Assembly (NCBI RefSeq): GCF_039522665.1
Contig: NZ_BAAADV010000001.1
Coordinates: forward strand, 248,001-312,000
DNA from: Natronoarchaeum mannanilyticum
GTDB taxonomy: Archaea; Halobacteriota; Halobacteria; Halobacteriales; Natronoarchaeaceae
Reading direction: 5' to 3'
Length of the DNA stretch: 64,000 nt
The notes beneath the pieces were generated by a model. It was not told where the DNA came from. It made no database searches and worked only from the letters and a program-made list of their open reading frames with translations. Shown one piece after another: positions 22,108-48,707 of this stretch. The position numbers and the translations under genes were made by a program. Numbering within the stretch: position 1 is the first letter of the stretch; each line of letters opens with the position of its first letter.

Positions 22108-22650
22108 TCACTTGTCGCCCGCACCGTCCCGAACCTTCACGGCCATCCCGGCGTCGAAGTCGAGCATCGCGTCCGCGGACAGTTCTGCGCGCCCGACGGC
22201 GAGCAGGCGGCCCTCCTCGTGGACCACGAGCACCTCGTCGTCCGGGCGGATCTCGGGATCGACCTCGGTGACGAACTTCGCGAACGCGTTCTTGCCCTCG
22301 CGGACGAACGGCTCGCTGTCGTCGCCCACCACGACGCGGTTTTTCGGATGGGCGAGGTCGGCGAGCCTGCGCCCGCCCTCGAGGCCGAGCGTGAACCGGC
22401 CGTCGACGCCGAGCGTGACGAGCCGCCCGCCGTCCGCGTCCTCGCGAGGCGACGCCGAGCGAGGGCTCGATGAGCTTTGCTCATCGGCGAGCACCTGGCT
22501 CGGACGCCCCGAACTGCTGCGCTTGACCTCGTACTCGTCGTCCTCGGGAAAGAGGAGCGCTCCGGCGCCGCCGCCGAACTGGTAGTCCGCGACGCGCCGA
22601 AGGTCGTCGCCGTCGTCGCCGAGGCCGCCGGCGCCCGAATCGTCGGTCAT
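22108..22650 (-). CDS. PUA-domain RNA-binding protein (archaeosine-synthase C-terminal-like)
   Basis: 180 residues. Residues 18-45 (RRVADYQFGGGAGALLFPED) and 76-180 (RFTLGLEGGRRLADL, SEPFVREGKNAFAKFV, DEVLVVHEEGRLLAVGRA) match the C-terminal domains of archaeal TgtA/ArcS enzymes, ending in a PUA domain; the catalytic part is absent, so it is a stand-alone RNA-binding module. Residues about 51-75 are a low-complexity Ser/Pro/Arg insert encoded by palindromic DNA (see 22441-22492) that interrupts the otherwise conserved region. Confidence 0.85.
   Translation of the reverse strand: MTDDSGAGGLGDDGDDLRRVADYQFGGGAGALLFPEDDEYEVKRSSSGRPSQVLADEQSSSSPRSASPREDADGGRLVTLGVDGRFTLGLEGGRRLADLAHPKNRVVVGDDSEPFVREGKNAFAKFVTEVDPEIRPDDEVLVVHEEGRLLAVGRAELSADAMLDFDAGMAVKVRDGAGDK
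22441..22492. repeat. palindromic insert within the PUA gene
   Basis: Two successive hairpins: CGAGC/GCTCG (22456-22469) and ATGAGC-TTT-GCTCAT (22470-22484) with a flanking CGAGC at 22488-22492. Read on the coding strand it gives ADEQSSSSPRSASPRE, out of character for the protein. The same architecture and the 9-mer TCGAGCCCT recur in frame at 48569-48611. Confidence 0.6.
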
Positions 22651-48230: not shown

Positions 48231-48707
48231 CTAGTACTGCCTGTCGACGATCGGGTGCTCGATCGCGACGAACTCGTCGAGCGTCGCCGAGGCGCGGCGC
48301 TCTAACTTCTGCTGGATCTCCTTCGCCGAAAGCTCGGCGTCGACCTCGCTCGCCAGCGTCTCGACGTCGAGCACGGCCGAGGACATCCCCAGCAGCAGGT
48401 GCTCCCAGGCCATCTCGACGATCGTGTCCGCGTCGGGCGCGTCGTCGTCGAGCGCCTGGATCGCCGCGGCGTCGGCCATCGAAATCTCGGGTGACTCGCC
48501 GTCGGCCAGCGCGGCGACGACCTCGCGGTCGACGCCCGACTCCTCGGCGACGGCGTCGACGTCCTGCCGAGCCTGCGAGGCAGGGCTCGAAGCGTTTTGC
48601 GCTTCGGCGCCGCGATCGTCGATCACCGCTCGCAGATCGGCGTCGTACTCCTCGCGCAGCCCGGCGGGCGATAGTCCGTCGAGATCGGTTCGCTGCTCGT
48701 GGATCAT
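48231..48707 (-). CDS. haloarchaeal DUF5791-like protein carrying palindromic insert
   Basis: 158 residues. Begins MIHEQRTDLDGLSPAGLREE; helical throughout, with a HTH-like centre (ESGVDREVVAALADGESPEISMADAAA) and a C-terminal LSAKEIQQKLERRASATLDEF. Residues 33-48 (GAEAQNASSPASQARQ) are an odd Ser/Pro/Gln insert encoded by the palindromic element at 48569-48611. ATATTGG at 48732-48737 is 27 nt upstream. Family name from memory; function unknown. Confidence 0.8.
   Translation of the reverse strand: MIHEQRTDLDGLSPAGLREEYDADLRAVIDDRGAEAQNASSPASQARQDVDAVAEESGVDREVVAALADGESPEISMADAAAIQALDDDAPDADTIVEMAWEHLLLGMSSAVLDVETLASEVDAELSAKEIQQKLERRASATLDEFVAIEHPIVDRQY
48569..48611. repeat. palindromic insert within the DUF5791-like gene
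   Basis: Hairpin one GAGCCTGC-GAG-GCAGGGCTC (48569-48588, one bulged base) abuts hairpin two CGAAGCG/CGCTTCG (48588-48606). Shares on the coding strand the 9-mer TCGAGCCCT and frame with 22441-22492. Confidence 0.6.

Follow-up and report, generated by a model that had tools for sequence, protein, structure and literature searches.

Introduction

Short palindromic sequences that are inserted in frame into conserved but otherwise unrelated protein genes, and that also occur between genes, have been described in Rickettsia, where the Rickettsia palindromic elements (RPE; Ogata 2000, 2002) are approximately 105-150 bp long and form long stem-loops with a terminal inverted repeat (PMC10969869 and PMC2229807), and where repeat identity declines with time (PMC6649704). 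In Archaea, Suyama et al. (2005) reported repeats that contain open reading frames and are fused into protein genes, as cited in PMC2229807. For Haloquadratum walsbyi, the available text of PMC3119063 describes 52-bp terminal-only PATEs, which derive from IS605 ends and may be mobile, and small mobile repeats (SMR), whose mobility is enigmatic and of which SMR-A inserts in palindromes of other mobile elements. Coding repeats of further types are PARCEL, i.e., 25-aa amphipathic repeats in open reading frames without assigned function that were reported absent from archaea (PMC2996958), and the coding inverted repeats of nematomorph mitochondria, the arms of which are kept matched and for which template switching has been proposed (PMC6649704).

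Here, a coding palindromic unit of haloarchaea is compared with these systems. The window, i.e., the whole stretch of 64,000 nt that was analyzed (Natronoarchaeum mannanilyticum contig NZ_BAAADV010000001.1, positions 248,001 to 312,000), holds two copies in two unrelated genes.

Results

The features of both copies are given below in window positions; R1 denotes the covariance model used as search model for genome-wide copies.

22108..22650, minus strand: host gene 1, TGT_C2 and PUA domain protein of 180 aa (Pfam PF14810 and PF01472; open reading frame)
22438..22488, minus strand: inserted 51-nt unit encoding ADEQSSSSPRSASPRED (R1 match 22435-22488, 79.8 bits; 17 aa absent in orthologues)
22468..22486, minus strand: hairpin 1, CGATGAGC-AAA-GCTCATCG, 8-bp arms and 3-nt loop (inverted repeat; paired columns 3-10/15-22)
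22440..22464, minus strand: hairpin 2, CCTCGC ... GCGAGG, inner stem GGC/GCC (paired columns 26-31/45-50 and 34-36/40-42)
48231..48707, minus strand: host gene 2, DUF5791 protein of 158 aa (Pfam PF19104, E=1e-44)
48561..48608, minus strand: inserted 48-nt unit encoding AEAQNASSPASQARQD (R1 match 48558-48608, 66.6 bits; 16 aa missing at the site in the orthologues of all other genomes, congener included)
48588..48606, minus strand: hairpin 1 of the second unit (alignment and pair counts)
48563..48584, minus strand: hairpin 2 of the second unit, CCTGCC ... GGCAGG (alignment and pair counts)

The original prediction had placed a palindromic insert at 22441-22492 of the PUA gene; a palindromic region is present there, but the full unit of 51 nt is slightly offset (22438-22488). 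Of its two proposed hairpins, ATGAGC-TTT-GCTCAT was found exactly as described (22468-22486), whereas the stem read as CGAGC/GCTCG is really CCTCGC/GCGAGG (22440-22464). The twin that it had seen in the unrelated gene at 48231-48707 was confirmed at 48561-48608, with two hairpins and a frame that matches relative to its own gene. The common layout is GCC-hairpin 1-CGAGC-hairpin 2-GGAC, which amounts to 48 or 51 nt and thus 16 or 17 aa, and units occur singly or in tandem arrays in the host genome as well as in other genomes. The encoded segment is hydrophilic, acidic and rich in Ser, Pro and Gln, and is probably disordered.

Alignment of PUA homologues, which had been proposed as a check, revealed a gap at the site in most of the other genera compared, where the 17-aa unit is missing, and a diverged copy of the unit at the same position in the congener. 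Between the two congeners compared, this site displays four double-sided pair changes and zero one-sided changes, and the amino acids are altered by them. The PUA protein was modelled by AlphaFold2 with a mean pLDDT of 84.3; residues 59-72 have pLDDT values below 50 and are situated between two strands, and the insert is probably, according to this model, a disordered loop connecting them. The PUA homologues of Halorubrum and Halobellus carry an unrelated shorter VDDTPGSS-like insert in the same loop (L065, L067, L072, L074, L075, L091, L104, L106).

For eight hosts (PUA, DUF5791, GH68, threonine synthase, GNAT, histidine phosphatase, histidine kinase and an unnamed protein), the orthologues are shorter by 16 or 17 aa at the respective site, and therefore the units are real and precise insertions. 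The unit of a DUF7112 host is common to the congener, and the hosts have no common function. The junctions of the eight insertions displayed no consistent target-site duplication; GAC was present on both sides in three of the eight, and GAC is also a common codon. This absence of a consistent duplication, together with hairpins that are internal and are not terminal repeats, differs from a classical MITE. In several genomes, MBL-fold genes resembling persulfide dioxygenase carry units at a common site (L285-L288, L113), and at a different site in L303.

Further genomic copies, which a mobile element would leave, are numerous. A BLAST search of the host genome with a 68-nt query detected a dozen further copies at E<1e-3, the best at 1e-16, and the R1 search detected approximately 60 copies at E<0.01, with E-values down to 7e-14. 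R1 recognized 35 copies in the congener and many in other families; with stricter filters, at least one copy at E<=1e-4 was present in 128 of 242 Halobacteria genomes and in 45 of 73 genera. Plasmids of Halomicrobium, Natronorubrum and Natrinema are among the named carrier records. As a control, R1 was run on approximately 0.95 Mb of flanks of PUA-homologue loci from other haloarchaea (mostly Haloferax and Halorubrum), where the best score was 24.9 bits as compared to 79.8 and 66.6 bits for the window copies. The window has a GC content of 69% and contains many short palindromes, which could point to an artefact of chance or composition in GC-rich coding DNA; this explanation is refuted by the E-values of both searches and by the exact empty sites, which leave it a negligible probability.

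One gene upstream of its DUF7500 domain contains about 6-7 arrayed units whose arms differ from each other (L043 1868-2213), and relatives that share the layout of the unit also lie between genes. The host genome moreover possesses a palindrome-rich noncoding repeat family of approximately 500-600 bp, with copies about 75-90% identical, which carry a relative of the unit of 60 nt and other inserted hairpins (L145, L147, L150-L154, L142). Two patterns searched in viral contigs and a BLAST of phage records returned no match, and neither a transposition event nor a transposase was found for the units.

Mobilization by a transposon of the IS200/IS605 type would make the unit a terminal-only derivative, i.e., two fused near-terminal palindromes moved as single-stranded DNA by TnpA, and similar size and hairpins are described for the 52-bp PATEs of H. 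walsbyi in the available text of PMC3119063. However, the Y1 transposase (TnpA, PF01797) was not matched in six element-bearing genomes (G003, G004, G013 and G032, all approximately 99% complete, as well as G008 and G015), the TnpB loci of the host gave no convincing unit match (best 18.1 bits) that would link the unit ends to a transposon of this type, and stems varying by double-sided changes are not described for PATEs in the part of PMC3119063 available. This origin was rejected as unlikely, and the units do not need an IS200-type transposase resident in the same genome.

Within genes, across dozens of unrelated hosts in this archaeon and related species, the units are found almost exclusively on the sense strand. 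All of the 21 full copies located within same-strand called genes of the host genome are in phase 0, a frame that they share with the coding copies read from other genomes, i.e., one frame dominates. Host-genome sequence was read in stretches surrounding the matches. Gene calls were crude and missed the DUF5791 and DUF7500 hosts, both of which were settled by Pfam. Stop codons do not force the choice of frame, since 45-48 of the 52 distinct coding units are free of them in the +1, -0 and -2 frames. In the consensus, frame +0 gives an acidic peptide (net -2), four of the remaining frames give basic ones and stops interrupt the fifth in 19 of the 52 units; selection acting against peptides unsuited to a halophile is therefore a likely filter. 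Two antisense copies within genes are credible (L138 and L156), so that the strand rule is not absolute. Three of the five apparent antisense cases (L137, L053 and L158) failed closer inspection.

For pair counting, 23 units were aligned and the two-hairpin structure was scored per stem cell, with hairpin 1 at paired columns 3-10/15-22 and hairpin 2 at 26-31/45-50 with its inner stem at 34-36/40-42. The share of paired stem cells was 94.9% as compared to 79.0% in shuffles, and 62 cells carried double changes as compared to 19.6 in shuffles and at most 4 with the partner slid; the structure was derived from the same sequences as these counts, and the slid and shuffled controls are far lower. 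Double-sided changes were seen in 12 of the 17 stem pairs. The 676 stem pairs of the 52 distinct coding units comprise 653 Watson-Crick pairs, 20 mismatches and 3 G-T pairs, and the 5' arm occurs in 20 different forms for hairpin 1 and in 17 for hairpin 2. The arms thus co-vary by Watson-Crick pairing.

Selection on RNA stems should tolerate G-U pairs. An RNA element acting in the mRNA through stability, processing or regulation would fit the bias to the sense strand and the strong folds. By contrast, G-T pairs (n = 3) are fewer than A-C mismatches (n = 11) in the 52 units, the functions of the hosts are unrelated, and no Rfam family reached the gathering score in the window or in three loci with intergenic relatives, the latter giving just weak chance matches; a role as RNA is accordingly very improbable. 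Because G-T pairs are rare, we infer that pairing is kept at the level of DNA, as single strand, as cruciform or by templated correction of the arms. Conversion between copies is a possible source of the arm changes, and non-allelic gene conversion or turnover of tandem arrays could cause them without any requirement for DNA structure.

In histidine kinases, the N-box Asn precedes the units and AxEH follows them, frequently with several units in tandem, as in NLFRN-AVEHGSTSPDSQARQD-AVEHG, and the units' own first codons, which belong to hairpin 1, encode AVEHG and so rebuild the N-box after insertion. Tandem units at 48-nt spacing were found in the kinase genes G115:C1:286051-286293, G228:C1:172614-172808 and G003:C1:2851497-2851643; those of G115 and G003 are near-identical, which suggests recent expansion. 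Kinase-type units also occur outside kinases, in a gene resembling arginyl-tRNA synthetase as identified by eye (L292) and in a further non-kinase gene (L300), and this suggests spread from the kinases. Since hairpin 1 there encodes the AVEHG that restores the motif, the histidine-kinase N-box may be the source or main reservoir of the unit, a view that we hold with less confidence than the DNA-level pairing.

Among the coding copies read from other genomes, approximately half are situated in kinase N-boxes, often in arrays, and plasmids of many genera carry kinases with a related N-box sequence. Both observations would also fit a coding repeat born in tandem in histidine kinases, kept for protein function as a flexible segment by the N-box and copied to other proteins by recombination, with palindromes as a by-product of codons. 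Contrarily, amino acids are altered (e.g., R to D and E to Q) while pairing is retained, and therefore the conserved thing is the fold and not the peptide; moreover, many of the host genes encode unrelated enzymes whose orthologues have an empty site, and the intergenic relatives share the layout. Retention for the sake of the protein is thus an improbable account.

Discussion

The notion that this locus harbors a mobile palindromic element tolerating in-frame insertion is supported by the empty sites in homologues and by the approximately 60 genomic copies, with movement itself as the candidate part. We consider it likely that the unit is a protein-coding palindromic element of haloarchaea, both dispersed and non-autonomous, in which two DNA hairpins joined by CGAGC form each 48- or 51-nt unit, whole units insert and grow in tandem, and the fold is a property of the DNA. 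Following this, the whole unit would insert into genes, where in-frame sense insertions would persist, and units would multiply in tandem. The hairpins would be important at the DNA level, within an intermediate that is single-stranded or cruciform, and/or template switching would rewrite one arm from the other, so that the fold would outlive changes of the peptide. Because the hairpin arms change together at the DNA level, the unit looks like selfish DNA that is tolerant of translation. A more specific scenario, which is conceivable but which we put forward tentatively, is that selfish coding DNA was born in the histidine-kinase N-box, where one hairpin arm corresponds to the AVEHG codons and each insertion beside the N-box Asn would rebuild the catalytic motif, and subsequently spread to unrelated genes, with arms rewritten by DNA hairpin-templated correction, the peptide drifting and the fold persisting.

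By description, RPE appear to be the closest known kind. In both cases, a multi-copy palindromic unit is found in frame in unrelated protein genes, so that the comparison drawn in the original prediction fits in principle. Unlike RPE, however, the haloarchaeal units are only 48 or 51 nt long, have two separate hairpins and form tandem arrays, and their arms change in concert whereas the repeat identity of RPE fades; the unit would work like RPE without their size and layout, and membership in the Rickettsia families is not claimed. The transposase-free repeats of H. walsbyi resemble the units in being palindromic or having inverted ends and in the lack of target duplication, but in-frame insertion into conserved genes is not described for PATEs and SMRs in the accessible part of PMC3119063. 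PARCEL are likewise tandem coding repeats with dyad symmetry that are dispersed between genomes (PMC2996958); their motif of 25 aa is amphipathic and they are not insertions into conserved folds, whereas the unit encodes 16 or 17 hydrophilic aa. The analysis gave no grounds for classing the haloarchaeal unit with PATEs, MITEs or PARCEL. In nematomorph mitochondria, the arms of coding inverted repeats also stay matched, but those palindromes are long and remain in place, in contrast to the dispersed sequence family described here (PMC6649704).

The peptide strings VEHGSTS, SSSSPRSASP and EHGSTSPDS did not occur in the literature searched, and further literature searches returned only the RPE, the repeats of Suyama et al., PATEs/SMRs, PARCEL and the nematomorph palindromes. 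The repeats of Suyama et al. reportedly stem from Methanocaldococcus jannaschii and are said to belong to a lineage other than that of the haloarchaeal units. As far as the literature searched shows, the variant is new and the kind already known, because archaeal coding repeats fused into protein genes, like the present units, were reported earlier (Suyama et al., 2005, through its citation in the accessible part of PMC2229807).

The finding broadens the range of in-frame palindromic elements to an entire class of archaea. This group includes species amenable to laboratory work and offers numerous natural insertions, with the corresponding empty sites available in sister species. The scarce G-T pairs provide an unusual opportunity to decide if the pairing of coding hairpins is maintained at the DNA or the RNA level, and the unit family would also account for 16- or 17-aa insertions in haloarchaeal proteins. 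Moreover, the kinase N-box hub suggests a route by which a piece of a conserved motif may become mobile DNA.
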